Positions 7,042 to 64,000 of a stretch of 64,000 nucleotides of DNA are shown in pieces. The notes under the pieces were generated by a model. The model saw only the letters and a list, made by a program, of their open reading frames with translations, did not search any database and was not told the origin of the DNA. Every line of letters starts with the position of its first letter. Within the stretch, counting starts at the first letter, position 1. The stretch is taken from the NCBI GenBank assembly GCA_025656675.1, contig JAHXHN010000001.1:339501-403500 (forward strand), in the 5' to 3' direction. Position numbers and translations under genes: made by a program. Source of the DNA: Candidatus Thiodiazotropha sp. (ex Codakia rugifera). Its GTDB lineage: Bacteria > Pseudomonadota > Gammaproteobacteria > Chromatiales > Chromatiaceae.

Positions 7042-7142
7042 GCCATGGATGAGTGGATCAATTCTGGGACCGTCAGTAGGTGAAAAAACCAAAAAAAACC
7101 CACCGGCGAATCTACGCGCACCTCTTTTCCGTTATATAGTCA

Positions 7143-7183
7143 GCCAATGGGCCAGTGCTTAAGGGAAGAACTGGCCCATTGGC
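7143..7183 (+). terminator. Rho-independent terminator of nudE-cysQ
   Basis: A perfect 14-bp stem (gccaatgggccagt at 7143-7156 pairs with 7170-7183) with a 13-nt loop, followed by attatttt. It lies 100 bp after the cysQ stop and 24 bp before the convergent secreted-protein gene. It has a T-rich tail only in the plus direction. Confidence 0.85.
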
Positions 7184-7206
7184 ATTATTTTGCAGCGCAT
7201 GCCTGA

Positions 7207-7764: not shown

Positions 7765-8025
7765 CAATTTCTCCCCAATGAACGATCTATGCAATATGAC
7801 GTCTGATGTCCTACCGAAGTAAATGACATCTAAATCAACCATAAACAATACAACCACTATTTGCTATTAGCTATTTTGCTTTTCTAGCGAGTTAGTGTAG
7901 TGTCCTGATTAATAAAAAGCCTATATTTCAGTCTAAACCCCCACCCATATAGTAGGTTTGCCTGACTGAAAGTGTAGGACAAGATAACTGATGCTCCGGG
8001 CTCCAACCTTAAACGATGGTGGGCC

Positions 8026-9066: not shown

Positions 9067-9142
9067 TTTTTGGGCCGTGTTCAACTTAAGAACTTTTTCT
9101 ATGTGCCGATAGGCAGGACAAGATAGCATCCGCACATTTAAA

Positions 9143-9291
9143 CCCATGAACGGCAGTTGAGCGTTTTGAGTAACTGGCAAGTGATGGGTCTAACTGAGGT
9201 TATGGACAATCATGAAACTTACCCATTGGGTGAGCATGGCTACGACCACCAGGGCACGCACCCTGGTGGTCGTTCAACTGATGTTTCCAGG
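9143..9291 (+). mobile_element. MITE-like element, copy 2 (149 bp, short form)
   Basis: A shortened relative of copies 1 and 3. It is flanked by the 5-bp direct repeat TTAAA (9138-9142 and 9292-9296). The left end cccatgaacggcagttgagc and the reverse complement of the right end, cctggaaacatcagttgaac, share the CAGTTGA core with the other copies. The internal block acttacccattgggtgag matches copy 1 near 5355-5375. The second half contains the perfect hairpin at 9242-9273. The start codon of the diguanylate cyclase begins on the last A of the right target repeat. Confidence 0.6.
9242..9273 (+). terminator. Perfect 13-bp hairpin inside MITE copy 2
   Basis: acgaccaccaggg (9242-9254) pairs perfectly with ccctggtggtcgt (9261-9273) around a 6-nt loop. 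There is no T-run after it, so termination is uncertain. Its position 23 bp before a start codon could also affect translation of the cyclase mRNA if that transcript begins upstream. Confidence 0.45.
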
Positions 9292-9295
9292 TTAA

Positions 9296-28600: not shown

Positions 28601-31600
28601 CTCGATTCCCATACCACAACAAAACCATCGTCGGATCGAGTTACTGTCGATTCATATCGAGCTGCGGAAGTTGTCGTGTTGACATTGAACTCAGAGACGC
28701 TGACGGTTCCATTGGCATCGTAAATCGTTGCTTTAAGTGAGCCACCTGAATCATACGTAACAACAAATTTGCCATTCGACAGAGAAGCAATGTCAGCGAT
28801 GTTGTCCGCACCGGAAATCGTAGTTTCGGCAGTCCGGATGCTACCGTCCGAATTCATTACGGCAAACCGTGTCCCAAGCGATCCATCGTTCGTGCGCCAG
28901 GTGGCCGCAAAACCACCATCATCTAGCAGGGTGACTTCTGTTTGGGCACCAAACAACCCACCTCCACCAAGCAGCGATCCGACGGTGAACTGACTGCCGA
29001 CCGTCGATCCCGTGCGATCATAGATCTGACCGGCAATTTGGTAAGTCGCACCACCAATTTCATTGGCCCACAGGACAACGAACTCATTGGCATTAAGTGC
29101 AAGAACAGCAGGCTGATATCCCTCATTATCACCATTAGTACCGGGACTCACTTTAAACTCAGCGGTTGCTGCTGTGCCATCTGCGTCGAACACACGCGCA
29201 TCAGTCCAGGCCATGACGCCGCTGGTCTGATCCTGCCAAGCAACGACAAATCCTCCGTCGGAGAAAGTTGTAACAGACGGGTTGGTTTCCGAATCACCGA
29301 CTTCCGAAGTCACCAGAAACTCAACGCCATTCGTGCTGCCATCGGCATCAAAACGTTGTCCGTAAATGCCGTAATCACTGCCGTCCTGCCCGTTGGACAC
29401 CCAGACAGTGATATAGCCGCCATCGTCAAAAGCAGCGATAGCAGGATCTATCTGGTCGCTGGTACCGTAGGTGTTGACGTCCTGTTCTGCGGCTGTTTCG
29501 GAATCGAAAATGATGTCGGTCGGTGCAGAGTTGACGACTTCAGCAGCTATCTTGGTGAGATCGGCAAACTGGAAAAACTCAATATTTTTAACGGTATCAG
29601 TGCCGTCGGGTGAAGATGCTCGGGCATCGATGATAGTGTATGTGCCGGCATTCTCTGTGATCGTGTAATCAGACCAGTTACCGGAGAAGATAGCCGTATC
29701 CGTGCCCGTGCCACCATCGAGATAGTCGTCGCCGGCACCACCGGTGAGGGTATCGTCGCCGGGTGTTGTTGCCGAAGTAGTGATTTCGTTCAGTTGGATG
29801 TCATCGACAGCGAAGTAGTCGAGACTACCGGAATATGGAGTGGTATTCGCCAGAACAATCCTAAGCGCGGTGCCGTCAGCGGCGGTATAAGCATCGCCAT
29901 CTACGGAGATAGCGATGTCCGTCCAGGTATCGGCGACAGGCTCGGTGCCCGTCGCACTGCCGATCAGTGTTCCGCCAGCATATAGCTGAATAGAATAGGT
30001 GTTGCCGTTGCCGGATGAAAGGGGATTGCCGAGTTTCAGCGACAGCTCATAATCTTTGCCGCTGTCGAAGTTGCTGGCCAGCGTCTGGGAGACCTGGTTG
30101 TCTTCGGGAATCAGGAGAGCGTTTTCACCTTCCGCGGGCATTCCACTTGAAAATGAGGCAATCGACGGATCCCCGATGAAGACTTCAAAATTGCCGAAAT
30201 CATCGTTCCAGGCGGCTGAAAGCGGTGCCGATCCACCATTAGCGATTGCGGTATCTTCAAAACCGGCATCATTGATGGTGATCAACTGACTGGTTGTGCC
30301 GTTAGGGTCACTTCCATCACCAATCAGAATATCGTCGCCGGCCCCACCGTCGAGCGTATCGCCACCGCTGGACAGGACTTCGTACATACGGACGTTGTCG
30401 AGTGCCGTTGTCCGCGCTGTGTCTGGACCGTCCTCATCGAAACGGATTGTGTTGGTGGCGTCACCGGAACCGGCGACCACATTATAGGTATAGGTTTGAA
30501 GCGTATTGCCAGCGGGGTCTATTGTCTCCAACAGTGCGCCATTCCAATAAACATGCAGTAAACCATCACCATCCCCGGTGAGGCCGGCATCAAACGACAG
30601 TTGGTAACTGTTCCCGTTTGTTAGGCCTGCGACCGCTTGCTCGATAATAGAGAAATCTATTATGGTTTTCATATCGAGATAGTAGCTGCCGTCGGTGGCG
30701 GTTACGCTATTGGTACCGCTGGCTTCAATATCGAAGCCGGCACCGTTGACATCCGTCCACCCTGCCGAGCTTGGCGAACCACCGCTTTCGAAGCTGCCAT
30801 TGGTGATATGGTTGGTGGTCCCGAGCGAGACACCGTTATCGCCCAGCCCATAGATCAAATCGTCATGACTGGTACCGGTAATCGTATCCGGTCCACTCGT
30901 ACCGGTCGTGATCGTCATCACTTCGTCATAGGTGGGGGCGCCACTGTCGGTCGCCCTTACGGTGATGTCGTAGGATTGTACCGTGGAAGTATCCGGTGCT
31001 CCGGTCCAGAATAGCTCACCACTATCGGAATCGACTGAGAACATACCGCCGGCATCATCGACGAGGCTGTATGTTATTGTGCCGCCTACAGGGTCTGTTG
31101 CGATGACCGTCCCGGCCGACAATCCTGTTCCAACACCTGTCGGCGGATGCACGTGATCGTAGATCTTGACCTCGTCCAGGTCGCCACCGAACATTCTGTC
31201 CACATTCAGATCATACCGGGCCCCAAGATAGACATTGCCGCTGGGGTTAAAACCATCTCCACCGCGGGTATCGGTGTTCTTCACCACGCCGTCAAGATAG
31301 ACGGTCGAACCGACGCCAGCTTCAACAGTTAATGTATAAGTATGCCACTCGCCATCGCCGACAATGGTGCTGATATCGAACTCAAGGGCCGCATTATCCA
31401 ATGTGTCGTCGGCATCGCGAATAACCGTACGCAGTACATTGGGGTCTGTACCGTGTGAGGCTTCGTTGATGAAAATATTCAGGCTATTGGTCGTGTTGAT
31501 ATCACCATGGCTGTAGATATACTGGAACAGTGAACCCGTACTATCGTCGACCTTGAAATGGAAAGTCACCGTGAAGTCATTGTTCATCGTAACGTCAGGA

Positions 31601-51491: not shown

Positions 51492-52175
51492 TCAAGACCG
51501 ATTGAATACCAACCTGTTGCGACCGGCAAAGAGAAGTAGACCAGTCGCGATCAGAAGCAAGATGCCCGGTTCAGGCACATTTGCAGTCTCCTGCTCACTG
51601 ACCCATACATCACCATCCCTCACCGCCCATATACGCTGCTCATCTGATATGCCATTGATTTCCTGTGAGCCAAAATGAAAATGTAGGTACCAGGCTTGAT
51701 CGGAGAAATCTGACAATGTACCGGACCAGTATCCACGGTAAGACAGATTGGTAAACGGATTATAATTGCTTGAAACCGGGGCAGGATCAAACCTGTCATG
51801 GGAGTAGTTGGGTTGATAGCCCAGATTCACATAATACATATAGGCCAATTCACTGCTCATACCGGTCGTGTCATACCCTAATGAGCTTGGGTCATTGATC
51901 GTAGTTGGTAAGCGCCAGTCATCCCATACAACACCACGTAAAGGATCGTCATACTGGAGCCCGCTTACCCAATTGACTGAATCCAACCAGCTCAATCTTG
52001 CGTAGGGCGCAGAGCCGGAGGTCATGGCATAAGAGGCATCCTGCAACCAGGTCACATCCAATACATCGTCATAAATCAGCCCAGCACCCCTATCGATGAG
52101 AGTTGCATTGGCTGTACTGGCATACCCCAGGGAGATAAACAGGGCACAGAGGATGTGAGTCATTCGTTTTTTCAT
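51492..52175 (-). CDS. PEP-CTERM protein with Lcl/DUF1566 domain (paralogue 1)
   Basis: 227 residues from the ATG at 52175 (MKKRMTHILCALFISLGYAS), with GGAG about 9 nt upstream; the frame is open further up but without a start signal. Signal peptide, then a DUF1566 (Lcl C-terminal) domain: LIYDDVLDVTWLQDASYAMT, VVWDDWRLPTTIND, RGYWSGTLSDFSDQAWYLHF and RIWAVRDGD. The end is a PEP-CTERM sorting tag (VPEPGILLLIATGLLLFAGR), used by exosortase for surface display. It is a clear paralogue of the gene at 52495-53157. No exosortase gene is in the window. Confidence 0.85.
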   Translation of the reverse strand: MKKRMTHILCALFISLGYASTANATLIDRGAGLIYDDVLDVTWLQDASYAMTSGSAPYARLSWLDSVNWVSGLQYDDPLRGVVWDDWRLPTTINDPSSLGYDTTGMSSELAYMYYVNLGYQPNYSHDRFDPAPVSSNYNPFTNLSYRGYWSGTLSDFSDQAWYLHFHFGSQEINGISDEQRIWAVRDGDVWVSEQETANVPEPGILLLIATGLLLFAGRNRLVFNRS

Positions 52176-52445
52176 CAGCATTGGCTCCAGCGCCAAGGTA
52201 TTAATAATTTCAGACTCTAAATGCAATACACATGCCAAAGATAATATTAACTGATAAAACATTGATTTACATAAATTACAAAATAAACCACTCCCCACAA
52301 ATGTAAAAAAACCTGACAGCATTCACGCACGACTCGATAAGGCGATGACCGTCTTGCTGCAGTTAATCTAACCCTAGGAACAATCAAATATTTTTTAAAA
52401 AAACGTGCAGTGGCGCTGAATAAAAGTTTGTTTGAATTGAACACA

Positions 52446-52494: not shown

Positions 52495-53157
52495 CTAAGT
52501 CGATCTGCCCTTACGACCCATCACTCTCAGAAACAGGAGACCGGAAGCCATCAACAACATCGCCGGCGGAATAGGTACAGGAGCAACATCACCATCTCTC
52601 ACAGCCCAGAGACGTTGTTCGTCACCCAGTTTACTGTTGATATCCTGATAGCCGAAGTGCATATGTAAGTACCAGGCGCGGTTTTCAAAGTCTGACGGTG
52701 TACCCGACCAGTACCCACGGGTTTGGAGATTGATGAACGGATTGTAATTACCTGAAGTTGGCGCCGGATCTGATGGATCTAATGACATATTTGCATCATA
52801 TCCAAGATTCACATAGTACATATAGGCCATCTCACTACTCATTCCTGTCGTGTCCCAACCTATTGAGTCTGCATGATTTGTCGTAGTGGGTAGACGCCAA
52901 TCATCCCATGTGACCCCACGCTCAGTATCATAGTAACTCAGCGTACTCGCCCAGTTTACCGCATCGTACCAGTTCAGTTTCCCGGACTGGACATAACCTG
53001 ATGTTTGGGCATAGGAAGCATCCTGTAACCAGGTAACATCCAGGACATCATCGTAAATGAGTCCACCCAGACGGTCATGCAAAGCGGCTTGGACATGTCC
53101 AGCAGACAGCACGAAAAATAGAACCAATACAGGGACAAAAACCGCTCTTCGAACCAT
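52495..53157 (-). CDS. PEP-CTERM-like protein with Lcl/DUF1566 domain (paralogue 2)
   Basis: 220 residues from the ATG at 53157 (MVRRAVFVPVLVLFFVLSAG), with GGAGA about 10 nt upstream. It has a signal peptide ending AGHVQA and the same domain as its neighbour (LIYDDVLDVTWLQDASYAQT, VTWDDWRLPTTTNH, RGYWSGTPSDFENRAWYLHM, RLWAVRDGD). The C-terminus (VPIPPAMLLMASGLLFLRVM, then basic residues) is the VPxP variant of the PEP-CTERM tag. The two proteins are similar along their whole length, so this is a tandem duplication in which each copy kept its own promoter and terminator. Confidence 0.85.
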   Translation of the reverse strand: MVRRAVFVPVLVLFFVLSAGHVQAALHDRLGGLIYDDVLDVTWLQDASYAQTSGYVQSGKLNWYDAVNWASTLSYYDTERGVTWDDWRLPTTTNHADSIGWDTTGMSSEMAYMYYVNLGYDANMSLDPSDPAPTSGNYNPFINLQTRGYWSGTPSDFENRAWYLHMHFGYQDINSKLGDEQRLWAVRDGDVAPVPIPPAMLLMASGLLFLRVMGRKGRST

Positions 53158-53452
53158 GACTGTATTCTCCATATCAAACAAAAAAGTCATTTTTTCACAG
53201 ATAGCGGGTCCATGTGCAATATTCATTCCACACATAAAATACCGTTTAATAACAGTATAATAAGAGAAACCCTTACTGATGGGACATATTGACTGTTAAA
53301 TATTTCGACAACCCATGAACAATCACTGATACCAAACCATTGAGGTAGATTTCACTTGAAGCCAATCAATACCCAACCATCCACATTTGTAGAACCAACG
53401 AACTGACTGAGTATATCCGGCCTGGTTCGAAGACGCTCCAACTCTTGAAACA

Positions 53453-53650
53453 CTATGAGCAATTAACATCACCTTTATCGACATCTTTTCGAGTGGAAGG
53501 CTTGCACCCACAGGGTCCGCACCCTGAACACTCATCCGTTGCTCTGTTACTCTCCGGGTCCAAATGCTTCATCCACAACTGGATGATCACCCATACCGCA
53601 CATAAGAGAACCAGACCGATAATGGCAGCCAGATGGGTCCACATGGTCAT
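53453..53650 (-). CDS. Small Cys-rich membrane protein of the rnf operon
   Basis: 65 residues: an N-terminal transmembrane helix (residues ~5-27, HLAAIIGLVLLCAVWVIIQL) then a short soluble tail with a cysteine cluster (CSGCGPCGC, residues ~41-49) and one more Cys near the end. Its ATG overlaps the rnfA stop in ATGA, so it is translationally coupled to Rnf. The cluster could bind iron-sulfur or metal. It resembles short Cys-rich membrane proteins seen beside redox and transport genes, but I cannot name a family. Last gene of the operon. Confidence 0.75.
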   Translation of the reverse strand: MTMWTHLAAIIGLVLLCAVWVIIQLWMKHLDPESNRATDECSGCGPCGCKPSTRKDVDKGDVNCS

Positions 53651-54225
53651 GCTGCGCTGAATAAGCCGGCAAATCCCATAAATGCCATGGATAGAATACC
53701 GGCGATGATCAGATTCATGGCGGTACCCTTAATCAATCGAGGCACTTCAGCCAGCTCAGTCTCCTCACGAATGCCGGCCATCAGCACCAGGGCCAAGGTG
53801 AAACCGAGACCTGCGCCCAGGGCATAGACCATGCCTTCAATGAATCCATAACCTTTATTGGTGGCGAATATGGCCAGTCCCAAAATGGCACAATTGGTGG
53901 TTATCAGAGGCAGAAAGATTCCTAGCGCCCTGAACAGACCAGGACTCATTTTCTTAATCACCATTTCGATGAATTGCACGGTACTGGCGATGACCACGAT
54001 AAAGCTTATCAACCTCAGATAGGGCGCGTGAATGAGAATATAGGTATTGAGAAACCAGGCGCACAGAGCAGTGATTAACATCACAAAGATGGTGGCCAGA
54101 CCCAGCCGGAAGGCGGTTTCCAGTCGTTGTGATACACCCAGAAAAGGACAGAGTCCCAGGAAATAAGCCAAAACAAAATTATTGATCAGCAGGGCACTTA
54201 TAAAAATCCACACCAGTTCATTCAT
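53647..54225 (-). CDS. rnfA: Rnf electron transport complex subunit RnfA
   Basis: 192 residues, six membrane helices. It begins MNELVWIFISALLINNFVLA and contains YFLGLCPFLGV and LPLITTNCAILGLAIF, each with one of the two membrane-embedded cysteines that coordinate the intramembrane iron-sulfur cluster shared with RnfE. RnfABCDGE couples electron flow between ferredoxin and NAD to ion pumping. Here rnfA follows rnfE but is separated from it by the 239-bp MITE. CTAGG from the MITE end lies about 10 nt before the ATG and may serve as its ribosome-binding site. Confidence 0.97.
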   Translation of the reverse strand: MNELVWIFISALLINNFVLAYFLGLCPFLGVSQRLETAFRLGLATIFVMLITALCAWFLNTYILIHAPYLRLISFIVVIASTVQFIEMVIKKMSPGLFRALGIFLPLITTNCAILGLAIFATNKGYGFIEGMVYALGAGLGFTLALVLMAGIREETELAEVPRLIKGTAMNLIIAGILSMAFMGFAGLFSAA

Positions 54226-54235
54226 CGTGCTTCAA

Positions 54236-54474
54236 CCTAGAATCCGCAGTTGAACATGTATTTGTGGGAAATCCCGGCGTGTCCGGCAAGGCGTCGTTTG
54301 CCGTTAATGGCCATGCCTTTAACAAAAGCGACAACGCAGCAGGGTGCGTTGGGATTTTCCACAAATAGTTGTAGCGTTTCAGAACTCACCCAACGGGTGC
54401 TGGAAAAACACACTATTTCATTTGGCATATCATTACCTTACGTCAGATATTAGCGGTCAACTGCGGAATCTAGG
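54236..54474 (-). mobile_element. MITE-like element, copy 3 (239 bp), inserted at the rnfE-rnfA junction
   Basis: Best-preserved copy. The terminal inverted repeats cctagaatccgcagttgaac (54236-54255) and the reverse complement of 54455-54474 match at 18 of 20 positions. The 5-bp target duplication TTCAA flanks it (54231-54235 and 54475-54479). It has no coding frame. The last five rnfE codons and the stop lie inside the right end. Deleting the element and one TTCAA gives ATT GAA GCA CGA TGA, whose TGA overlaps the rnfA ATG as ATGA. The empty site is thus a normal rnf junction. Confidence 0.92.
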
Positions 54475-55116
54475 TTCAATCTCCATCTCATCCAGCTGCG
54501 CTACCAGTCTGTCCTTACGCTCCTTGAGCCAATTGAATAACAGCAGCAGGAGACCCAGAGTAATGAAACCACCGGGTGGCAGAATCATGATCACCCAAGG
54601 CTCGAAGTCATCACTGAACAACTTGAAACCGAACAGGGCACCCTCCCCCAATATCTCTCGTACAGCGCCCAGGGAGAACAGGGCAAACAGAAAGCCGCTG
54701 GCCATGCCCAGCGCATCCACTACCGCAAGGCGTACCGAGTTGCGCGAGGCGAAGGCCTCCTGCCGTCCCAGGATCATACAGTTGGCCACGATCAACGGAA
54801 TGAAGGCCCCCAACTCCTTATGGACCACTGGCATCAGCGCTTGCAGCGTAAAATCGGTCACCGTGACAAAGGTGGCAATAATGATGATATAGGTGGAGAT
54901 GCGTACCTGTTTCGGAATCCAGTTTTTCAGTGAAGAGACGAAAAAACTCGAGGCCACCAGCACAAAAAAAGTCGCTCCTCCCATCACCAGGGCATTGACC
55001 GCGGAATTGGTGACTGCCAGCATCGGACACATACCCAACACCTGCACGAAAACCGGATTATCACGCCACAATCCTTTGATGAACTCCTGATAAGTGTCTT
55101 GTTTTTTCTCAGGCAT
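54457..55116 (-). CDS. rnfE: Rnf electron transport complex subunit RnfE (C-terminus rewritten by MITE)
   Basis: 219 residues from the ATG at 55116 (MPEKKQDTYQEFIKGLWRDN), 1 nt after the rnfG stop, with AGGGTG 6 nt upstream. Six membrane helices. VQVLGMCPMLAVTNSAVNAL and PLIVANCMILGRQEAFASRN carry the two intramembrane cysteines that pair with those of RnfA. The last residues, PRFRS, and the stop are encoded by the end of the transposable element. The uninterrupted frame would have ended AR and overlapped rnfA. The change is limited to the cytoplasmic tail, so function is probably kept. Confidence 0.95.
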   Translation of the reverse strand: MPEKKQDTYQEFIKGLWRDNPVFVQVLGMCPMLAVTNSAVNALVMGGATFFVLVASSFFVSSLKNWIPKQVRISTYIIIIATFVTVTDFTLQALMPVVHKELGAFIPLIVANCMILGRQEAFASRNSVRLAVVDALGMASGFLFALFSLGAVREILGEGALFGFKLFSDDFEPWVIMILPPGGFITLGLLLLLFNWLKERKDRLVAQLDEMEIEPRFRS

Positions 55117-55117
55117 A

Positions 55118-55762
55118 CTATTCACCCTGTTGAATCTGTAAACGCTGTAACCATTGTTGATTCGCTTGATTAATAATCCGCACGACTGCCTTTGAGGAGA
55201 TGGTTGCCCCGGTGATGGCATCGACCTCGTTCGGAGCGGACTTACTGCCTCGCTTCACCGCCACAATCTCGGGATCAATGGACAGGGCATCGAAATTCGC
55301 CACAAAGGCCGCATCCTTATAGATCTTGTCACCTAACCCCGGCGTTTCACGACTCTCGAGTATCTCCATACCCACCACCTTGCGCTGTCGTGGCAGATAG
55401 CCATAAAGCAAGCTGATGATATCCTGGAAGCCGGGGCCTGAACCGGGAATGGCATACCCCACCAGCGCCCCCTCTGAGTTATAGCCACCGAATACAAACT
55501 CCTCCTCTTTGCCGACCTCTTCCACCACGGCCAGTTTATCTTTACGGTAGGCCAATCGTTGTAAACGGGTGGAACCAGGCAACACCTTGAATACCGCCTC
55601 CTGCAGTATCCTGGCCTTATAGGCCGTGATAGTGGGCAGGGTGGCCTCAAACACGCTGACGATGATCAAACCGGAAAGCAGACCGGCAAATCCCAGTGTG
55701 GCCACCAGGCGCATCGATCCGGGTTCAGTGGCGTTGACGGTCTGTTGAGTCTGCGGCTTCAT
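55118..55762 (-). CDS. rnfG: Rnf electron transport complex subunit RnfG
   Basis: 214 residues. One N-terminal transmembrane helix (~18-40) and a periplasmic FMN-binding domain. The FMN is attached covalently to a threonine in the motif DAITGATISSKAV near residue 180, the recognised target pattern of ApbE. RETPGLGDKI also follows the family. It starts 7 nt after the rnfD stop. The apbE gene at 12355-13437 could supply the modifying enzyme. Confidence 0.95.
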   Translation of the reverse strand: MKPQTQQTVNATEPGSMRLVATLGFAGLLSGLIIVSVFEATLPTITAYKARILQEAVFKVLPGSTRLQRLAYRKDKLAVVEEVGKEEEFVFGGYNSEGALVGYAIPGSGPGFQDIISLLYGYLPRQRKVVGMEILESRETPGLGDKIYKDAAFVANFDALSIDPEIVAVKRGSKSAPNEVDAITGATISSKAVVRIINQANQQWLQRLQIQQGE

Positions 55763-55769
55763 CTGATCT

Positions 55770-56777
55770 TCACTCCTTACCGAATACCCGGGGCTGGGTA
55801 TATCGATCGATCAGTGGTGTTGCTGCATTCATCAGCAGAATGGCGTACATCACACCCTCGGGAAAACCACCGAAGATCCGAATCAGCACAACCAGCAATC
55901 CTATTCCTACAGCAAATATCCAGGCCCCACGCGGGGTCAGGGGGGAGGTAACCGGATCGGTCGCCATATAAAAGGCTGCCAGCAGCAACCCACCGGAGAA
56001 CAGCGTAAACAAAGGGTCCGGATAGTGGCTGGTATCGATGGCATAGAGAACGCCGGAGAAGATTGCTGCCGACAGCAGAACACCGGCCGGTATGCGCCAG
56101 TCGATATCACGCCGTAACACTAAAAAGACCCCTCCAGCCAACAACAGCAGACCACTGGTCTCACCGATACACCCCGCTGTGTTACCCAGTACCAGATCAG
56201 GCAGTGCAGTGGATTGCTGCTCAAATTTCATCAACCCCAGCGGAGTGGCTGTGGAGACTGCATCGTAGTGAGGCTGCATGAACGGCAAGGCAAAGTTAGA
56301 GGGATACCATTGAAAAAAACCCTCCCCGCTTGCCTGAGTGCTCCAGGTGGTCATGGCATTAGGAAAGGTTGCCAGCAGAAAGGCACGCCCGACCAGGGCC
56401 GGATTGAATAGATTCTGCCCCAACCCGCCCCAGATCAGTTTACCGATACCCACTGAGACAACCCCGCCTAAAAACGCCATCCACAGTGGTAGTGCAGGAG
56501 GCAGGGTCAGACCAAGCAACAGACCCGTCAGGACACCGCTGCCATCCACCAGTCTCGCTGCGCGCTGTTCCGCTGGCGAGAAAAGCCATTCGGTAGCCAC
56601 CGCCCCCAAGATACTCGCCAAAATCACCAGCAGCGCACTGAATCCGAATAGCCAAATCCCGGCAAAAGTAACAGGCAGCAGGGCAAACAGCAGGTCTCTC
56701 ATGGTCTGGTGGGTGGTCATCTGCTGCTTCAGCAAAGGGGAAGGCTGTACCAGCAATCTGGGATCTTTGTACTGCAT
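55770..56777 (-). CDS. rnfD: Rnf electron transport complex subunit RnfD
   Basis: 335 residues from the ATG at 56777, overlapping the rnfC stop by one base (TGATG). NqrB/RnfD family with about nine membrane helices. Visible family stretches: GLLLGLTLPPALPLWMAFLG, GKLIWGGLGQNLFNPALVGR and FYMATDPVTSPLTPRGAWIF. The FMN attachment site is the threonine in VSTATPLGL near residue 175; the usual motif is SGATPL, so here Gly is replaced by Thr in STATPL while the modified Thr is kept. Confidence 0.95.
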   Translation of the reverse strand: MQYKDPRLLVQPSPLLKQQMTTHQTMRDLLFALLPVTFAGIWLFGFSALLVILASILGAVATEWLFSPAEQRAARLVDGSGVLTGLLLGLTLPPALPLWMAFLGGVVSVGIGKLIWGGLGQNLFNPALVGRAFLLATFPNAMTTWSTQASGEGFFQWYPSNFALPFMQPHYDAVSTATPLGLMKFEQQSTALPDLVLGNTAGCIGETSGLLLLAGGVFLVLRRDIDWRIPAGVLLSAAIFSGVLYAIDTSHYPDPLFTLFSGGLLLAAFYMATDPVTSPLTPRGAWIFAVGIGLLVVLIRIFGGFPEGVMYAILLMNAATPLIDRYTQPRVFGKE

Positions 56778-58117
56778 CAAGCCTTACCCCGCTTACCACG
56801 CATTTCACTTTTGGCGCCGCGAATCAACTGTACAATAGGGATACCGGAGGGGCAGGAGTAGGTACAGGAGCCACACTCCACACACTCTGCCACATTGGCC
56901 TGTTTAATCTTATCGAACTGTCGTGCTTTGGCCAGACGCGCCAGCTTGGAGGGGTTCAGGAAATAGGGACAGGCCTCCACACATCGACCACATCGGATAC
57001 AGGGAACCTCTTTGGGGCGGGCGGTCTGTTGCGCGGTAAAGGCCAGGATCCCGGAACTGGACTTGATGATTGGCGCATCCAGACTGGCAATGGGAGTACC
57101 CATCATAGGCCCACCCATCAGCACCTCTTTGGTCTCCGCCTTGAGACCACCGCAAAAACGTAACACCTCCCGTACCGGTGTACCCAGGGGGACAATCAGA
57201 TTGGCGGGATATTCAATACCGGGACCTGACACTGTCACCATACGGTCGATATAGGGCATGCCGGTATCGAAGTAGTCGGCGATGGCAACGATGGTGCTGA
57301 CATTGTTCATGATGATTCCCAGATCTGCCGCATGCAGTCCTTTGGGAATCTCGATGTTCAACAGGGATTTGATCATCATCTTTGAGTCACCCTGGGGGTA
57401 TTTAACCCTCAGCGGTGCCACCCGGAACGGTTGGCCGGACGGTATGCGTTCACCCAGTGATGCAATCGCATCGGGTTTGTTGAGTTCAATACCGATGATC
57501 GACTTTTCAGCACCTAACAGGGTGTGCAGGATCTCAATGCCTTTTAACAGGGCCGCCGGGCGTTCGACCATGACGCGATGGTCATTGGTCAGATAAGGTT
57601 CACATTCGGCCCCATTGGCAATCAGGTGTTTGATTTTCACCCCTTTCCGCAGTGAATATTTAACATGCACGGGCAGTGAAGCCCCACCTAAACCTACAAT
57701 CCCGGTACCTTGCATTACCGAGACAAAATCATCCAGGGAGAGGCCTCGCCAGTCCGGGGGACGGTCTACTTCGAGACGCTGGGTTGCATACAGATCCGCC
57801 TCGATCTCAATGGCCTGTTCATACCGGCCGCCTGGAAAACGGCGTTGCCCGATGGCCTTGACCCGGCCGCTAACCGGACTGTGCAGACTGGTGGATACGA
57901 ATGCACCAGGACCAGCGATCACCTGACCGCGCCTGACCTGCTGGCCCGCTTCCACCAATGGCTTGGAAGGGGCTCCCAAGTGCTGGTGTAGTGGCAGTAT
58001 GTAACGCTCCACAAAAGGCATTCGCTGGGTCGGCAATGCGGCGGTCTGATCCTTGTACTCATCGGGATGAATGCCGTGTGAAAAACTGTGCTTGAAGAGT
58101 GTAGAGAGGGCTAACAT
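56777..58117 (-). CDS. rnfC: Rnf electron transport complex subunit RnfC
   Basis: 446 residues. Peripheral subunit that carries FMN and two 4Fe-4S clusters and exchanges electrons with NAD(H). It begins MLALSTLFKHSFSHGIHPDE. A barrel-sandwich region (GPGAFVSTSLHSPVSGRVKA), the Rossmann-like NADH/FMN region (GLGGASLPVHVKYSLRKG, LIANGAECEPYLTNDHRVMV) and a SLBB-like region are followed by clusters CIRCGRCVEACPYFLNP (~370) and CVECGSCTYSCPSGIP (~410). The start at 58117 lies 7 nt after the preceding stop; no strong ribosome-binding site is visible, so coupling is likely. An open frame begins at 58171 but lacks support. Confidence 0.93.
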   Translation of the reverse strand: MLALSTLFKHSFSHGIHPDEYKDQTAALPTQRMPFVERYILPLHQHLGAPSKPLVEAGQQVRRGQVIAGPGAFVSTSLHSPVSGRVKAIGQRRFPGGRYEQAIEIEADLYATQRLEVDRPPDWRGLSLDDFVSVMQGTGIVGLGGASLPVHVKYSLRKGVKIKHLIANGAECEPYLTNDHRVMVERPAALLKGIEILHTLLGAEKSIIGIELNKPDAIASLGERIPSGQPFRVAPLRVKYPQGDSKMMIKSLLNIEIPKGLHAADLGIIMNNVSTIVAIADYFDTGMPYIDRMVTVSGPGIEYPANLIVPLGTPVREVLRFCGGLKAETKEVLMGGPMMGTPIASLDAPIIKSSSGILAFTAQQTARPKEVPCIRCGRCVEACPYFLNPSKLARLAKARQFDKIKQANVAECVECGSCTYSCPSGIPIVQLIRGAKSEMRGKRGKA

Positions 58118-58124
58118 GTCGTTA

Positions 58125-61100
58125 TCATTGCGAACCCGATTTACGATGTGTCGAATCCCGGTAACCCGCAAGTTGCATCAGGCGGTCACGCATCGCTTGC
58201 CGGGTCTGTTGCTGCAGTTGGCCGCTTAACTCGCGAATGCGCTGTTCGTATTCATCCGCGAGCGCCTTCAATTCAGCTTCATGGGCTGCTGCAACACGTG
58301 CTTGCTCCTGCTCTTGAATCCGTGCTGTAAACGGCGTCACCAAACCGGCCAGCTCCTGCAGCATACGCCAGCTCGCCTGTCTCTCCTCGATAACCCTAAG
58401 CAATCTTTCCTCTACCCGGATGCGACAAACTTCATCCTCATTGAGGTGCTGTTCTGCAATCGGTACCCATTTGTTACGTTGCTTTTCCGACAGGGCCAGA
58501 TATTCCGCCACGCTAACCCCTTCGTCCCCCTCATTCACAGGGCCGAAGCAGTCTGTAAAACGGGCTTCTCCCAATGCCCAATCGGCCGGGGTGATGGCGT
58601 GCCCCTCAGGGTCCATAACCCACTGTTCCAAGGGGTCCGGATTGTCATCTAATGTGATCCTGGAACCCAATACGCCTTCACCTTGTGGATCGTATCTAAA
58701 CAGGGGCATGAGTCTGGCAGTAACCGCTGTTTCGGCCCGGTTTATTGTCTGATCCGTTGCGAATCCATGCCGTGTCGGGCTCGGTGCATGCAGATGCATC
58801 AGCGCCGGGCCCGGGTAGGCGAAAGCGGATCGGATGCTTGTGGCAAAATGGGCAGGGACACTCACTGATGTCTGGGCGATAAACAGATCACGCCGGGTAA
58901 GCGGCAACAGCGCCAAGTCGATACCGACATCATTAACAGGGGAGAGGGGTGAATCCAGGCCTGCCCGATCTGCCAGGCCCAGATCCAGGTCTGCGAGCAG
59001 CAAAACCTTAACCGGCAACTTATTGGCTAGCACCCGGGCGAGCTGCCCCAGACCACGACCAACCAGCTGATCGCTATCGCCCACCAAAAGCATGGTGGGA
59101 CAGAGAGACCGTTCTTGTTCATCAAGGTCACGCCATGTCAGTGACTCAATATCAGACCAAAGACGTGCTGCATCGGCAGAAGCTTCAAGCTCTGTCCGCG
59201 CCTTGCGCATCATGACAAAGCCCTCCGTTGCCTGGCGTAATTGACCTTCAAGCAGACCCGCCGCGAGCTGTACGCCATCACCGGTAGGATCGAGGGTAAC
59301 AGGTGCGCAATAGGGGCTATGAGGAAAACTGCTGGCCCAACCAACGGCGGAGCCGGGAGAGAGTACCAGGCTCACCCGAGCCCGGCCCATCCCCTGACGA
59401 CCTGAAGAGAGTCGCCAGGCCAGATCACCGAGATCACGCGCCAGATCAACCAGACGACGAAGCCGGGCCGCATCGACCTTGCTCCCGACTGCCGATTCGG
59501 CTTCACTGAGGAGACTGGTCATATCGGCCTGTCGGGCATCGATGTTATCCAGACCACGCGAGAGCGCATCCAGATCGTCGGCAGGTAAGGCATCCGACAG
59601 GATTGTGCGAATCAGATCGGTTATCGCTTCCCGGGTATGCTTGACCTGTTGCAGATATTCAGTAAACCGCGGGGCCAGTTGCGCCTCCACTACGGCAAGG
59701 ACCAGACGTATCGCCAACTTGGCACCCGATCCCGGCTCGGCACCATCACCCGTTGTCATCGCCAAGCCGGCACTATGGGCCAGATGGACAGCGGCCAAGG
59801 CACCGACTTGCGGATGCTGTTCAAGTCTGTTGAGGGTTGCCGACTCGCTATCGGGCAGACTGTGCCAGGCCCGCTCTATCTGTCGTGCCTGAGACAGGGA
59901 TTGCGAACTTTGTCGGATGTTTTGCAACGCCGCCGACTGACAGGCCTGGATACAGATCCCGCACCCCTTGCAACCCTCCGGGTCGACCGACAAGGCCAAT
60001 AACTCACCGCTACCCTTATTCAGCTTTTCCGCATCATGATAGAGAGGATCTGTGATCGCGACTGGCAGACAACCGATCTTTTCAACCATCTGCTCGATGC
60101 CATGCTCAATCGCCTGTTTGCGTTCTTCGGCAAAGGGCAGTCTATCCCTGATCCTGCCATAGGCATGCTCAAGCAATGACTCCACCGTGGTAGGCGGAGG
60201 GGGATCCTGCTGTAAACACAGATTGGCAATACCGGCAGCCAGCTTAGATGCAATAGGCCTGAGTATCTCAGCTGAACTCCATCGAATGCCGGCATCGATC
60301 AGACGGGTCGGAGAGATGGCCAGGGCCTGGATGGCCGAATCGGGACAACGACTCCAACAATCGCCACAACCTGTACACAGGACTGGATTGAAAAGAGGGT
60401 GTTGTTTACGAAATCGGCTCAAGTCGCGAAAACTTGCCGAAAAGGGAGGTACCGCACCCATTGCCAGGTATGGGTCAGGTGCCAGTTGTTCATTCTTGCC
60501 CTGCTTATAGAGCACCCCGACCTGATCCCAGAATCGAGGCAGGCTGTCATAGGCATCATCGATGTTACCCAGTCGTCGAACCATGGCAGGAACCTGTTCA
60601 ACAGTTGTCACCGATGAACGCATCGGGTTGAGTGGAAAGCGGGTGTAATTGATCTCCTTCACCTGTTTAATGCCTGCCTCAAAACTTGTCAGGGTGGCAT
60701 CAACATTCATCACCGACTGACGCAGTTGCTCTTCACGCATTGTAACCAGACGACGTTGCGTTATTTCCAATTGGTCTGTTTTCAACAACACCCCTGAGAT
60801 GGCACCCAGCAGGTATTCATTGGGTGCCGAGATGGCAGCTTCAGGTGGTGTTATTTTATACAATTGCCCACCTGACTCCTTCAGGTGTACTCTCGTAGCC
60901 GCCGGTAATTGTGCCCAAACCGACTCATCGGGCAACAGGCTCTGCACCAGCAACACCCCCTCTTTAACCAGCCCCAGATGAGGGGAGAGCCGCTCCATTC
61001 CAGTATCCGAAACCAAAACGGCCAGATCGACAGGGGTTTCATCTCCCGGATCACGTAAGCCATCACGGCTAAAACTCAGCCGATCCGTACAGCGGCCTGC

Positions 61101-62726
61101 CCAGGGTTTGGTGAACAGGGCCGGTCGACTGCGTAATCCACCCCCCAGCAATCGAAAGAGAAAGAGCGCAGCTTCAATCATCAACCCTTCACCGGCATCT
61201 CCTGACAATCGGTGCAATACCAGGGTCATGGCATCTTTCGGCCTCAGCTCAGGAGATGCAGCCTCATCGCGAAGTCCCAGATCTGCAATATCCGGATAGC
61301 TGCGACGTAAGCGATCGAGCAAAACCTGTCGTTTGGGGTAATCACTGGACAGCTGGGAGAATTTGACTCCCAGATAGATCTGGGATCGCTTGATCGTATC
61401 CAGGTTGAGGCATAAGGCAAGCAGGTCGGCGCCACGCAACGGGAGACCCCCAAGACCGTAAATAACCGAAATAAAGCGGGGGTGCTGATGTGCATTTAAG
61501 GGTGGGTAGCCAACGCCTTTATCAGTCCCAAACCGCTCATTTTCAAACCCATGATCAAATGCTGCGCGCACCTCCCTCAACAGGGGGGGATCCGACGCCA
61601 GAGGCGTATCCAAACGCTCCAGTACACAGACTCGGGGACACTGGCTGAGCTGCCGTACTATCTCCTCGCCGGGAAAAGGACGCAGACAGCGGATACCCAG
61701 CACACCGGCTTTTAATCGATGGTTGTCTCGCAGGTAATCTGCCAAAGCCTCGAGAGTCTCGACAGCCGCCCCCTGGGCAACCAGAATCAGGGAGGCATCC
61801 TCCACCCTGTGAGATGACAACAGCCGATGATGCCGACCGGTCTGTTGTGCAAATTGATCAAAGGCATCATCGAGACATGTCGAGAATGTGTCATCGAAGA
61901 AGACACGCCCCGCCGCTTTGGCTTGTCCCCACACTTCGGTAGCCTGCAGGCCTCCCAACATGACCGGACGGTCAGGGTTATGCCAACGTGGCACACGTCT
62001 ACGCGCTTTGCCCAATATCAGTTGTTGTGCTGGCGTTGTGGATACGATCTGGTCATCCGGCTGCCCAAGATACCCGTTCATCAATCCTACGGGCGGCAAT
62101 CTGACCTCCTGTAACGCAAGTGCAGTCTGCTCACAGTCCATACCGACCAAGCCTGGCAGTAACGATTGCTCCGCGACTCGACGGGCAATCAGGGAAAAAT
62201 CCACAGCCTCCTGGACATTTGCTGCCATAAACTGGAAGCAGCCTGAATCTGCTGCCAGGTGAAAAGTTTCATGACCACTCCCCAAGGCCGGTGCATGACT
62301 CGCCAGGGCACGGGCACTGACATGCATGACCAGGGGTAGACGATGTCCGGCAGCAACTGCCAGTAAATCACCCGTCTGGGCCAGATCAGTCCCAGACAGA
62401 AAACTGGTTGCACGCAGGCCGCTCATCGCCATGCCGATGCTTGCAGCCAGTGCACCGCGAACCCCTTCCGCTGTGTGCGTACCCAGTGGGGTACCCATCT
62501 GGTTCACTGGTTGACGCCACTGTTCATTTCGCCAGGCCAGATCAGCAAATTCGGCTGGAAAGGATGCCCCCAGCCCTGCCGCATCACTGAAACCCGCTTC
62601 CGTTAGGGCGACAGCCGTATTGCCATCCAGCACGGTAGCTGTTCCAGCATAGGGACCCTGAGTATGGGATGATGACCCAAGCAGACGTCTCAGCAGGCGT
62701 AAAGCTGTGTTAGCGAAGCCGGGCAT
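58125..62726 (-). CDS. PFOR-like giant redox protein in the rnf operon, TPP motifs apparently lost
   Basis: 1533 residues from the ATG at 62726 (GAGG 7 nt upstream), overlapping the end of rnfB by 17 nt. It follows pyruvate:ferredoxin oxidoreductase: an alpha-like domain (~25-400; LPLVMHVSARALASHAPALG and VQEAVDFSLIARRVAE), a gamma-like domain (~420-640; SVIYGLGGLPLRGADLLALC) and two ferredoxin clusters (CTGCGDCWSRCP at 784, CKGCGICIQACQ at 919). A beta-like domain comes last (~1150-1400; ALLPLTRRDLFIAQTSVSVP, ARLMPLFRYDP). The thiamine motif GDGWAYDIG is replaced by GDSDQLVGRG (~1216), and the proximal-cluster CxxC is not visible. Extra insertions and a C-terminal coiled coil (~1430-1520) make it ~350 residues longer than NifJ. 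Probably an electron-transfer partner of Rnf rather than a pyruvate enzyme. Confidence 0.85.
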   Translation of the reverse strand: MPGFANTALRLLRRLLGSSSHTQGPYAGTATVLDGNTAVALTEAGFSDAAGLGASFPAEFADLAWRNEQWRQPVNQMGTPLGTHTAEGVRGALAASIGMAMSGLRATSFLSGTDLAQTGDLLAVAAGHRLPLVMHVSARALASHAPALGSGHETFHLAADSGCFQFMAANVQEAVDFSLIARRVAEQSLLPGLVGMDCEQTALALQEVRLPPVGLMNGYLGQPDDQIVSTTPAQQLILGKARRRVPRWHNPDRPVMLGGLQATEVWGQAKAAGRVFFDDTFSTCLDDAFDQFAQQTGRHHRLLSSHRVEDASLILVAQGAAVETLEALADYLRDNHRLKAGVLGIRCLRPFPGEEIVRQLSQCPRVCVLERLDTPLASDPPLLREVRAAFDHGFENERFGTDKGVGYPPLNAHQHPRFISVIYGLGGLPLRGADLLALCLNLDTIKRSQIYLGVKFSQLSSDYPKRQVLLDRLRRSYPDIADLGLRDEAASPELRPKDAMTLVLHRLSGDAGEGLMIEAALFLFRLLGGGLRSRPALFTKPWAGRCTDRLSFSRDGLRDPGDETPVDLAVLVSDTGMERLSPHLGLVKEGVLLVQSLLPDESVWAQLPAATRVHLKESGGQLYKITPPEAAISAPNEYLLGAISGVLLKTDQLEITQRRLVTMREEQLRQSVMNVDATLTSFEAGIKQVKEINYTRFPLNPMRSSVTTVEQVPAMVRRLGNIDDAYDSLPRFWDQVGVLYKQGKNEQLAPDPYLAMGAVPPFSASFRDLSRFRKQHPLFNPVLCTGCGDCWSRCPDSAIQALAISPTRLIDAGIRWSSAEILRPIASKLAAGIANLCLQQDPPPPTTVESLLEHAYGRIRDRLPFAEERKQAIEHGIEQMVEKIGCLPVAITDPLYHDAEKLNKGSGELLALSVDPEGCKGCGICIQACQSAALQNIRQSSQSLSQARQIERAWHSLPDSESATLNRLEQHPQVGALAAVHLAHSAGLAMTTGDGAEPGSGAKLAIRLVLAVVEAQLAPRFTEYLQQVKHTREAITDLIRTILSDALPADDLDALSRGLDNIDARQADMTSLLSEAESAVGSKVDAARLRRLVDLARDLGDLAWRLSSGRQGMGRARVSLVLSPGSAVGWASSFPHSPYCAPVTLDPTGDGVQLAAGLLEGQLRQATEGFVMMRKARTELEASADAARLWSDIESLTWRDLDEQERSLCPTMLLVGDSDQLVGRGLGQLARVLANKLPVKVLLLADLDLGLADRAGLDSPLSPVNDVGIDLALLPLTRRDLFIAQTSVSVPAHFATSIRSAFAYPGPALMHLHAPSPTRHGFATDQTINRAETAVTARLMPLFRYDPQGEGVLGSRITLDDNPDPLEQWVMDPEGHAITPADWALGEARFTDCFGPVNEGDEGVSVAEYLALSEKQRNKWVPIAEQHLNEDEVCRIRVEERLLRVIEERQASWRMLQELAGLVTPFTARIQEQEQARVAAAHEAELKALADEYEQRIRELSGQLQQQTRQAMRDRLMQLAGYRDSTHRKSGSQ

Positions 62727-63573
62727 AACGGACCTCACGTTGATTCTGAGAAGGTTGATGATCGGTGAACTGATTGCCTTCCAGCCATTGGATGGCACCC
62801 GTTGGACATCGGTAGGTCGCTTCTGGACGTGCCGGTCCTCCACCTGAATAGTCGACTACGGGTAGGTTCTCCTTCATCCGAATCAAGCCTGGCGCCGCAT
62901 CCGCTACACAACGCTCACAGGCATCACAAGCCGTGGTGCAGAGCGCAACGGCCATCTCACCGGCAAGAGGCGCCTTGCACTGAACGAACAGGTTCTGGCT
63001 GATGGGCACCAGTTCCAACAGGTCTCTAGGGCAGACCCCGACACAATCGCCACAAGCCGTACATTTCGTCACATCGACCACCGGCAGACCATTTGGATTT
63101 GTGTTGATTGCGTCGAAGCTGCAGACACCCTGGCAATCACCCAGACCAAAACAACCCCAGGAACACCCCTTGCCACCACCGGATACCACAGATGCCGCCA
63201 AACAGCTTTCAAAACCCTGATACTCGGCGATCTGATAGGCCTGACCTTTGCCACCGGCACAATGCAGGCGCGCCACAAGTTTTTCCTGCTGTCCGGGGTC
63301 CACATCCAAAAGCTCCGCCACCGCATCGATCGACGCTTGACTTGCCACGGTACACTTGCTGGGTTGAACGGCAAGTTGCACCAGTTGTTCGGCAAAGGCA
63401 TGACAACCTGGTTGACCGCAGGCGCCACAGTTGGAACCTGGCAGCAAATCCTCAGTCTCCTCAATACGGGGATCCTCCTGGACCTTCAGAAAACGGTAGG
63501 CCACCGCCAGAATGATCGCAAACAACAGACCGATACCGGTCATGATGGCGGGTGCGATAACGAAGCTGCTCAT
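62710..63573 (-). CDS. rnfB: Rnf electron transport complex subunit RnfB
   Basis: 287 residues. An N-terminal transmembrane helix (AIMTGIGLLFAIILAVAYRF) is followed by the four-cysteine 4Fe-4S segment (LLPGSNCGACGQPGCHAFAE, with a later Cys). A region CSWGCFGLGDCQGVC and a ferredoxin cluster (CTACGDCVGVCP) follow, then a second set CTTACDACERCV and a final cysteine in RCPTGAIQW. The layout is that of the long RnfB proteins. It is the entry point for ferredoxin electrons. The start overlaps the preceding gene by ATGA. The last 17 nt overlap the PFOR-like gene. Confidence 0.95.
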   Translation of the reverse strand: MSSFVIAPAIMTGIGLLFAIILAVAYRFLKVQEDPRIEETEDLLPGSNCGACGQPGCHAFAEQLVQLAVQPSKCTVASQASIDAVAELLDVDPGQQEKLVARLHCAGGKGQAYQIAEYQGFESCLAASVVSGGGKGCSWGCFGLGDCQGVCSFDAINTNPNGLPVVDVTKCTACGDCVGVCPRDLLELVPISQNLFVQCKAPLAGEMAVALCTTACDACERCVADAAPGLIRMKENLPVVDYSGGGPARPEATYRCPTGAIQWLEGNQFTDHQPSQNQREVRYARLR

Positions 63574-64000
63574 TGGTTGAATGGTGCTGCACGTTCAATC
63601 AATAGATCCAGATCCGGCTCATCCGGATTGGATGGCTTGCCCGGATGTATACACTTTGCAGGACAGATTTCAGCCGCCTGAACCAGTTGGGCGAATGTCG
63701 CACTGCCAAGATCTCCAAGCATGGCCTGCTTCTCTTCGTTATAGATAAAAAGTTGAGGATTGATCGGCAGGCAATCATTGCAACTGGTGCAGAGGGGCGT
63801 ATCTATCCAGGGCTCATCGAAGGCGAGAACCTCTTCCTCCTCTGGTGCAATGTCACTCACTGCCGCTGTTTCTTGCTCCTGCTCGACAGTGGCTAGGGTG
63901 TCATTCTCGGGTGGGGTTAACGGACGCATCAGGACAGGATGACTGCCCCCCTCCGCATCCATACCCAGCAACACATCAGTCAGCCGCTGCATGGCCTCAC
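63570..64000 (-). CDS. C-terminal part of a ferredoxin-domain protein (5' end off the window)
   Basis: The frame is open to the window edge, so this is the 3' part of a gene; an ATG at 63992 need not be the start. After an acidic linker (TVEQEQETAAVSDIAPEEEE) comes a 4Fe-4S-type domain: CTSCNDCLPINPQLFIYNEE, then ICPAKCIHPGKP. The second CxxxCP motif is reduced, which suggests one cluster. Similar tails occur at the ends of large 2-oxoacid oxidoreductase-like proteins, so the complete gene may be a second PFOR-related chain (inference). It overlaps rnfB by 4 nt and belongs to the same operon. Confidence 0.7.
   Translation of the reverse strand, partial: EAMQRLTDVLLGMDAEGGSHPVLMRPLTPPENDTLATVEQEQETAAVSDIAPEEEEVLAFDEPWIDTPLCTSCNDCLPINPQLFIYNEEKQAMLGDLGSATFAQLVQAAEICPAKCIHPGKPSNPDEPDLDLLIERAAPFNQ

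Follow-up and report, generated by a model that had tools for sequence, protein, structure and literature searches.

A 64,000-nucleotide stretch of the genome of Candidatus Thiodiazotropha sp. (ex Codakia rugifera), a lineage of lucinid clam symbionts, carries on its minus strand an rnf operon that encodes, between rnfB and rnfC, a 1,533-residue relative of pyruvate:ferredoxin oxidoreductase (PFOR) which looks catalytically dead. We refer to this stretch (positions 339501-403500 of contig C1; genome 4.65 Mb) as the window and to the protein as dPFOR. The operon starts outside the window with korA and korB, which encode an intact two-subunit 2-oxoacid:ferredoxin oxidoreductase (OFOR), followed by the gene for a second PFOR derivative, P840. 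Based on sequence comparison and structure prediction, dPFOR and P840 probably act as a bridge that carries electrons between KorAB and Rnf, and through it the ion-motive force would most likely drive the synthesis of 2-oxoglutarate. The occurrence of a dead PFOR encoded between the Rnf pump and an intact 2-oxoacid enzyme in sulfur oxidisers, including clam and tubeworm symbionts, suggests a complex that makes a key metabolite by means of an ion gradient. A bolder version, in which KorAB, P840, dPFOR and Rnf would assemble into one supercomplex acting as an ion-gradient-powered 2-oxoglutarate synthase, with two dead copies of a duplicated PFOR that once worked on Rnf sharing out its electron carriers and wiring KorAB to the pump by a swinging ferredoxin arm, is offered as a tentative proposal in which we have less confidence.

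Along the minus strand the genes of the window run in the order P840, rnfB, dPFOR, rnfC, rnfD, rnfG, rnfE and rnfA (Table 1), with Rnf subunits B, C, D, G, E and A all in one operon. Upstream of the window's end lie korA (637-amino-acid (aa) frame), korB (348-aa frame) and then P840; the window covers just part of this korA-korB-P840-rnf operon, and korAB and most of P840 lie outside it. The products of rnfA, rnfB, rnfC, rnfD and rnfE score above the cut-offs of their NCBIfam subfamily models and that of rnfG below. An initial annotation of the window had described a 1533-residue frame overlapping rnfB and lying 7 nt from rnfC, and this was confirmed: the open frame spans 58125..62843 on the minus strand, with an ATG at 62726-62724 that gives 1,533 aa and a start lying inside the 3' end of rnfB (17 nt shared; rnfB stop at 62710), while the stop at 58125 is followed after 7 nt by the likely rnfC ATG at 58117. 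In the automated locus surveys reported below, each gene is taken to begin at the first start codon in its frame.

The likeness to NifJ noted in that annotation is borne out by several comparisons. dPFOR matches TIGR02176 at E 3.4e-40, the Pfam families POR_N (1.9e-21) and PFOR_II (8.7e-12), and, by sequence, the PFOR structure 6cin_A in the PDB (E 2.2e-28). Its 137.8 bits fall short of the curated TIGR02176 cut-off of 911.35, which is a weak test, as an intact PFOR from a second rnf operon of the same genome (PFOR2) also stays below it (404.1 bits); the genome's own NifJ reaches 1723.7. A single-chain structure prediction covering residues 340-1533 (pLDDT 81.4, pTM 0.79) was aligned by Foldseek with 6cin_A at E 3.5e-31 over ~1,200 columns, with 14% identity and TM scores of 0.48/0.50. 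The PFOR fold is thus present, by model in residues 340-1533 and by sequence in domains I-II; the thiamine pyrophosphate (TPP) pocket, judged by sequence, is not intact.

The residues lost and kept were read from an alignment of 19 dPFOR sequences (pieces <1,000 aa excluded), 21 intact Rnf-operon PFORs of the PFOR2 type and the genome's ordinary NifJ, and from a wider alignment of 75 dPFOR (>1,350 aa) and 49 P840 (>780 aa) sequences, with residues numbered as in Desulfovibrio africanus PFOR as aligned. P840 rows <600 aa were excluded from the residue alignment; the structure alignments comprised 65 of the 76 listed dPFOR rows (>1,350 aa) and 41 of the 47 listed P840 rows (780-900 aa). Thr31, Glu64 and the TPP-loop Asn, which we take to have catalytic or TPP-binding roles in D. 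africanus PFOR, and the four proximal-cluster cysteines of domain VI are each found in 0/19 dPFOR, as against 21/21 PFOR2 (Thr31 20/21, one gap). The cysteine at C812 is replaced by Glu in 19/19 dPFOR and that at C1071 by Ser in 18/19. The eight cysteines of domain V are retained, in 19/19 sequences and, per position, in 71-75 of the 75 in the wider alignment. The motifs quoted in the initial annotation are also correct: two CxxCxxCxxxC clusters are present, GDSDQLVGRG stands in place of the TPP motif, and on inspection of the sequence there is no YPITP, nor a CxGC in the beta region. The first cysteines of the two cluster motifs are 135 residues apart in dPFOR vs 58 in the genome's own NifJ.

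dPFOR therefore shares with NifJ-type PFORs (D. africanus, M. thermoacetica) the fold and the two domain-V [4Fe-4S] motifs and differs from them in lacking the TPP site and the proximal cluster and in being encoded inside an rnf operon. With the TPP site lost and the domain-V clusters kept, beside Rnf, an electron-transfer role is the natural reading. A pseudogene can be ruled out, as the frames are long and open and the same residues are kept or lost across many genera (the copy at locus L108 is split in two pieces), and so can an accident of a single genome, given that a relative is encoded in 135 stretches.

P840 has 840 residues, no NCBIfam family match at 1e-5, and a Pfam match at its end only, to a ferredoxin domain. 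Its profile matches the part of the PFOR2 profile that begins with domain V and ends with the ferredoxin tail (hhalign E 1.3e-94) and that of dPFOR at E 1.3e-34. As judged from these alignments, P840 is the C-terminal half of an Rnf-operon PFOR, tail included, and is predicted to be catalytically dead as well. The ferredoxin tail motif occurs in 48/49 P840 sequences and any other CxxCxxC in 0/49, while a C-terminal ferredoxin tail occurs in 0/75 dPFOR sequences; at the sequence level the losses of dPFOR and P840 are complementary, each protein lacking parts of one electron chain that the other keeps. In a structure predicted for the P840 of locus L107 (pLDDT 82.1), the whole model gives a weak PFOR match (6ciq_B, E 3.2e-7, TM 0.23) and its end resembles Desulfovibrio ferredoxin I (1fxr; TM 0.74 by target length, E 0.055). 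A stretch of low confidence (712-757) lies ahead of the tail; this linker is probably flexible, so that the tail could swing between partners.

KorA and KorB, by comparison, retain their core active-site residues. In the alignments, from which only L008 of the first set was dropped (the rest show >50% identity and exceed 580 and 290 aa, respectively), KorA has its catalytic Thr, Glu and Arg in 47/47 sequences, and KorB its four cysteines, GDG and Asn in 50/50; other tested positions vary (KorA Ser346 41/47; KorB His67 31/50, Ile167 44/50, Gly169 49/50 and Ala173 10/50). KorA scores 494.4 against TIGR03710, above the cut-off of 482.75, and KorB falls short of its own (see below). The best PDB matches include two-subunit OFORs, and KorAB is of the same kind as the two-subunit OFOR and 2-oxoglutarate:ferredoxin oxidoreductase (OGOR) enzymes of Magnetococcus (6n2n) and Sulfolobus (5b46). 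The initial annotation had described the system as apparently without thiamine chemistry; this stands for dPFOR and does not hold for the whole system, because intact KorAB is encoded upstream. Genes for sucC and sucD follow dPFOR on its 3' side in L131 (a Lamellibrachia symbiont), as does sucD in L162 (Sedimenticola sp.), and these neighbours point to 2-oxoglutarate as the putative KorAB substrate. Separately, a NuoF-like protein (51K, SLBB and NADH_4Fe-4S domains) is encoded directly 5' of korA in several dPFOR operons (L162:1203-2450, L171:1284-2546 and L185:831-2618), in L171 behind a FAD_binding_2 flavoprotein; it is a possible entry point for NADH.

The association of these genes extends well beyond a single genome. 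The closest named match to dPFOR (91% identity) is in a metagenome-assembled genome titled Candidatus Thiodiazotropha sp., and the record titles include Thiodiazotropha, Thiosymbion, Thiorhodococcus, Thiocystis, Thiomargarita, Achromatium, Sedimenticola, tubeworm symbionts, Woeseiaceae and four Phycisphaerales; strains of Thiorhodococcus and of Thiocystis violacea are among the carriers. Among the named loci, which are the best 80 of the 135 stretches, RnfB lies within 2 kb 5' of dPFOR in 62 of the 70 with enough DNA (8 no, 10 too short), so that most homologues are found with Rnf, and their constant absence from it, named in the initial annotation as a refuting result, did not occur; the count is an underestimate, as three of the negative loci (L108, L111 and L182) do have RnfB further upstream. 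P840 was found at 53 loci (10 no, 17 too short), KorB at 45 (9 no, 26 too short), KorA at 43 (7 no, 30 too short) and RnfC at 47 (17 no, 16 too short).

Co-occurrence was also examined genome by genome. In a family sample of 57 genomes, 30 match the dPFOR query at 1e-60; by identity 15 of these have dPFOR, and the other 15 have PFOR2-type frames only, with about 30% identity. At E 3e-100 or better, P840 is found in exactly the 15 dPFOR genomes (next best 4.6e-57, a PFOR2), and KorA at >=69% identity in those 15 plus one more. In a class sample of 274 genomes, dPFOR and P840 occur in an identical set of 7; G089 and G261, whose matches cover the N-terminus at 35-38% and which have intact PFOR2 motifs, were counted as PFOR2. 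A phylum-wide search of 398 genomes with the P840 profile found a full P840 in the clam symbiont's own genome only, the other four matching genomes having partial matches in frames of 1,651-1,698 aa. In several genomes the two genes are unlinked. There are 18 genomes that lack P840 beside dPFOR or in which the dPFOR locus is truncated; in 17 of these P840 lies at another place, and only in Thiomargarita nelsonii THI036 (L125) was it not found. At 14 P840 loci from such split genomes, korA-korB lies within ~2.5 kb in 6 (L207, L210, L211, L212, L214 and L223), with an unrelated frame in between in L207 and L214; rnfD adjoins korA in L211, L212 and L214, and in two of them rnfG is beside korA-korB as well. 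As a separate observation, four loci titled Phycisphaerales, another phylum (L128, L138, L160 and L165; L160 begins inside dPFOR), carry dPFOR and rnf genes, with korAB and P840 present as well in three of them, likely through transfer between phyla or misbinned contigs.

A sister operon in the same genome offers a view of where these proteins may have come from. On contig C12 (L010:5296-15887), an rnfB-PFOR2-rnfCDGEA operon encodes, at the same position between rnfB and rnfC, an intact PFOR that, unlike dPFOR, keeps the catalytic and cluster residues and has its own ferredoxin tail; a third, canonical rnfC is also present in this genome. The tested catalytic and cluster residues are kept in 21/21 PFOR2 (Thr31 20/21), the tail is found in 17/21 by pattern and in three more by eye, and both rnf neighbours were seen at 19/21 PFOR2 loci. 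The operon is followed by PEP (phosphoenolpyruvate) synthase and its regulator PpsR (L010:1724-5078), with similar PEP synthase frames in L101, L103 and L225, and looks like a pyruvate synthase wired to Rnf. In a quick RnfC tree, the dPFOR-operon (21 rows) and PFOR2-operon (20 rows) proteins are separated from 18 canonical RnfC with an SH-aLRT of 100, the PFOR2-operon group itself having a support of 92; in L126 the two operons stand in tandem. A PFOR tree separates dPFOR and PFOR2 from a third PFOR type (PFOR3) and NifJ at just 83, and its NifJ branch is very long; the main grounds for relating dPFOR to PFOR2 are hence their place in the operon, the P840-PFOR2 match and the RnfC tree. The simplest history would begin with an active PFOR joining Rnf; duplicated copies would then have lost catalysis and been joined by KorAB.

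We propose that the operon product would be a membrane-bound KorAB-Rnf system in which KorAB is the catalyst. KorAB has the TPP site and one proximal cluster and, like other two-subunit enzymes of this class, lacks a domain V to hand electrons on; according to one study, the two-subunit enzymes of Sulfolobus are without domain V, have a large pocket thought to receive an outside ferredoxin, and use free ferredoxin (PMC5020499), whereas here a dead PFOR pair is encoded alongside KorAB. dPFOR and P840 would be two degenerate copies of the PFOR type of which the sister operon still encodes an intact member between rnfB and rnfC, pairing like the two chains of a PFOR dimer. The former would contribute domain V with its two clusters and a close genetic tie to rnfB, and the latter, which adjoins korB in complete operons, a tethered ferredoxin tail able to swing between partners, so that electrons would pass between KorAB, the P840 ferredoxin arm or dPFOR domain V, and RnfB. 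The initial annotation had proposed an electron-transfer module between Rnf and soluble ferredoxins or another donor; the lost site and kept clusters support the module, but since KorAB is intact and P840 carries a ferredoxin tail, KorAB appears a likelier partner than free ferredoxin alone. In the favoured direction, Rnf would push electrons from NADH uphill, powered by the ion-motive force, and KorAB would carboxylate succinyl-CoA, the resulting 2-oxoglutarate going into glutamate synthesis or a reductive branch of the tricarboxylic acid cycle. A 2025 review describes Rnf as reversible and as using an ion gradient to reduce ferredoxin with NADH (PMC12174285).

Several observations weigh against this bridge or its direction. 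KorB scores 230.4 against TIGR02177, under the cut-off of 261.9. The co-occurrence of dPFOR and P840 (Fisher p 4.5e-14 in the 57 family genomes) is uncorrected for ancestry, and G009 (88% complete) has KorA without dPFOR or P840. Among the 64 loci with enough DNA, 17 showed no RnfC downstream, including the four tubeworm-symbiont loci, and L116 and L143 showed no rnf gene in the 20.7 and 22.1 kb examined; korAB is not beside P840 in 8/14 split loci, three of them on contigs <=7.1 kb. The E1 subunit of 2-oxoglutarate dehydrogenase (OGDH) is encoded in 16/21 dPFOR genomes, the clam symbiont's own included. A marker of ATP-citrate lyase is absent from this genome and from 6/6 dPFOR genomes outside the family, so that in these genomes the product would be confined to biosynthesis or another cycle. 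Sulfide limitation of the Riftia symbiont brings a joint decrease of korAB(3), a 'PFOR-like' gene, nirB and glnL while the reductive tricarboxylic acid (rTCA) cluster rises (PMC11636981), which speaks against a plain rTCA role; if the 'PFOR-like' gene is dPFOR, the pattern fits a supply of 2-oxoglutarate to nitrogen assimilation in times of abundant energy.

The OGDH and citrate-lyase counts also bear on an alternative in which the same bridge runs backwards, KorAB oxidising 2-oxoglutarate and feeding Rnf, with NAD+ reduced and ions pumped, so that energy is conserved when oxygen or nitrate is short. The reversibility of Rnf, the four dPFOR genomes that are >=95% complete and without OGDH E1 (G012, G016, G158 and G274), and the missing citrate-lyase marker noted above are all compatible with it. 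Still, with OGDH E1 in most dPFOR genomes, 2-oxoglutarate oxidation there does not depend on a KorAB-Rnf route and no extra one is needed, and in the family sample the citrate-lyase marker is associated with dPFOR (11/15 dPFOR genomes vs 6/42 others). Neither count settles the direction, and we regard this reversal as a rather unlikely alternative. Synthesis of 2-oxoglutarate is favoured by the reversal of Rnf from NADH, by the presence of OGDH for oxidation and by the greater frequency of the citrate-lyase marker with dPFOR. As a sole means of oxidising 2-oxoglutarate, the KorAB route was ruled out, OGDH E1 being encoded in 34/41 genomes examined.

Alternatively, dPFOR could be a structural subunit only, a remnant that helps keep the Rnf complex assembled, with its clusters off any electron path to KorAB, KorAB using free ferredoxin and being merely encoded nearby. 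The dPFORs of L085 and L086 (1,258 and 1,286 aa) would suit such a scaffold, as they lack ~200 middle residues (~query 500-700), and so would the separation of korAB from P840 in over half of the split loci. The same two short proteins keep their domain-V cysteines. In dPFORs at large, the eight conserved cluster cysteines would be needless for a mere scaffold; moreover, tailed P840 tracks dPFOR genome by genome even where the two are unlinked. We consider a purely structural role improbable. That dPFOR still performs thiamine-dependent catalysis with an unusual site is scarcely credible, even though the PFOR fold, Arg114 (12/19 and 55/75) and an Asp at the D963 position (7/19 and 47/75) are retained, since the complete loss in the 19 sequences recurs in the wider set, where Glu64 and the TPP-loop Asn (6 gaps) are at 0/75 and the only exceptions are one Thr at Thr31 (1/75, 13 gaps) and one Cys at C815 (1/75; other proximal-cluster positions 0/75).

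Compared with known systems, the Rnf complex encoded here has the usual subunits with an extra PFOR-derived gene between B and C. Tubeworm symbionts likewise have an OGOR, korABCD, beside electron-transfer genes (Hdr-Flx, in the rTCA cluster), by which it is proposed to be fed directly; that system combines a four-subunit OGOR with a proposed bifurcating complex, and no PFOR-derived bridge is described in the available part of the source (PMC6315080). Mentions of korAB, Rnf or multiple PFOR copies in such bacteria appear in the parts consulted of a number of papers (PMC6315080, PMC6593406, PMC4914600, PMC9796809, PMC11636981, PMC12174285). The words 'pfor' and 'oxoglutarate' have 0 matches in the main text of the 2025 RNF/NQR review (PMC12174285), and neither a PFOR-derived protein inside an rnf operon nor a P840-like protein was found in the full-text literature searched, which covered few subscription papers. 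If the proposed bridge is correct, an enzyme fold has been turned into an electron wire while its intact relative survives in a sister operon of the same genome; in the bolder supercomplex version, aerobic sulfur oxidisers could run carboxylation at the ferredoxin level without exposing free low-potential ferredoxin to oxygen. The bridge would bear on how oxygen-respiring sulfur oxidisers and animal symbionts supply low-potential electrons to a ferredoxin-dependent carboxylase. It should be noted that, as dPFOR is a full-length PFOR relative, some of the copies counted as 'PFOR' in the genomes and transcriptomes of symbionts may encode proteins that, going by these residues, are not expected to act on pyruvate.

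Table 1. Coordinates in the window of dPFOR, its motifs and the neighbouring genes of the operon.
Feature	Position	Strand	Remarks
dPFOR	58125..62726	-	1,533-aa PFOR-derived protein; two domain-V [4Fe-4S] motifs; no TPP site, proximal cluster or C-terminal ferredoxin tail
First domain-V cluster motif, CTGCGDCWSRC (residues 784-794)	60345..60377	-	coordinates calculated from residue numbers
Second domain-V cluster motif, CKGCGICIQAC (residues 919-929)	59940..59972	-	coordinates calculated from residue numbers
GDSDQLVGRG at the place of the lost TPP motif (~residues 1216-1225)	59052..59081	-	coordinates calculated
rnfB	62710..63573	-	overlaps dPFOR by 17 nt
P840 gene, 3' end (C-terminal [4Fe-4S] ferredoxin tail)	63570..64000	-	gene runs on to contig position 405592
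rnfC	56777..58117	-	listed ORF (open reading frame) from TTG at 58171; likely ATG start 58117
rnfD	55770..56780	-	ORF and NCBIfam match
rnfG	55118..55762	-	TIGR01947 87.1 bits, cut-off 102
rnfE	54457..55221	-	ORF N-terminus probably too long; many homologues 214-222 aa
rnfA	53647..54225	-	ORF and NCBIfam match

Other PFOR loci encountered in the surveys have neighbours of their own. The third PFOR type (1,666-1,710 aa) occurs in L219 (2827-10679), L220, L221 and L222, and in three of the four (not L221) it adjoins a 950-970-aa protein, which in L219 and L220 has Fer4_20, Pyr_redox_2 and DHODB FeS domains; to our eye this neighbour resembles fused subunits of the NfnAB transhydrogenase. At L012:3004-6582 an ordinary NifJ is encoded, and beside it (6883-9725) lie three genes matching subunits B, G and D of a sulfhydrogenase-type NAD(P)-linked hydrogenase, all matches being under the family cut-offs.

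Elsewhere in the window, a 4,285-aa protein encoded at 19639-32496 (-) contains DUF4347, many cadherin-like and bacterial Ig domains, laminin G and a calcium-binding repeat, and by its predicted domains is a giant surface or secreted adhesin-like protein. On the 3' side of rnfA, two similar proteins, both with an Lcl_C domain, are encoded in tandem (51492-52322 and 52495-53235, -), and their C-termini resemble what we take to be a PEP-CTERM sorting signal.

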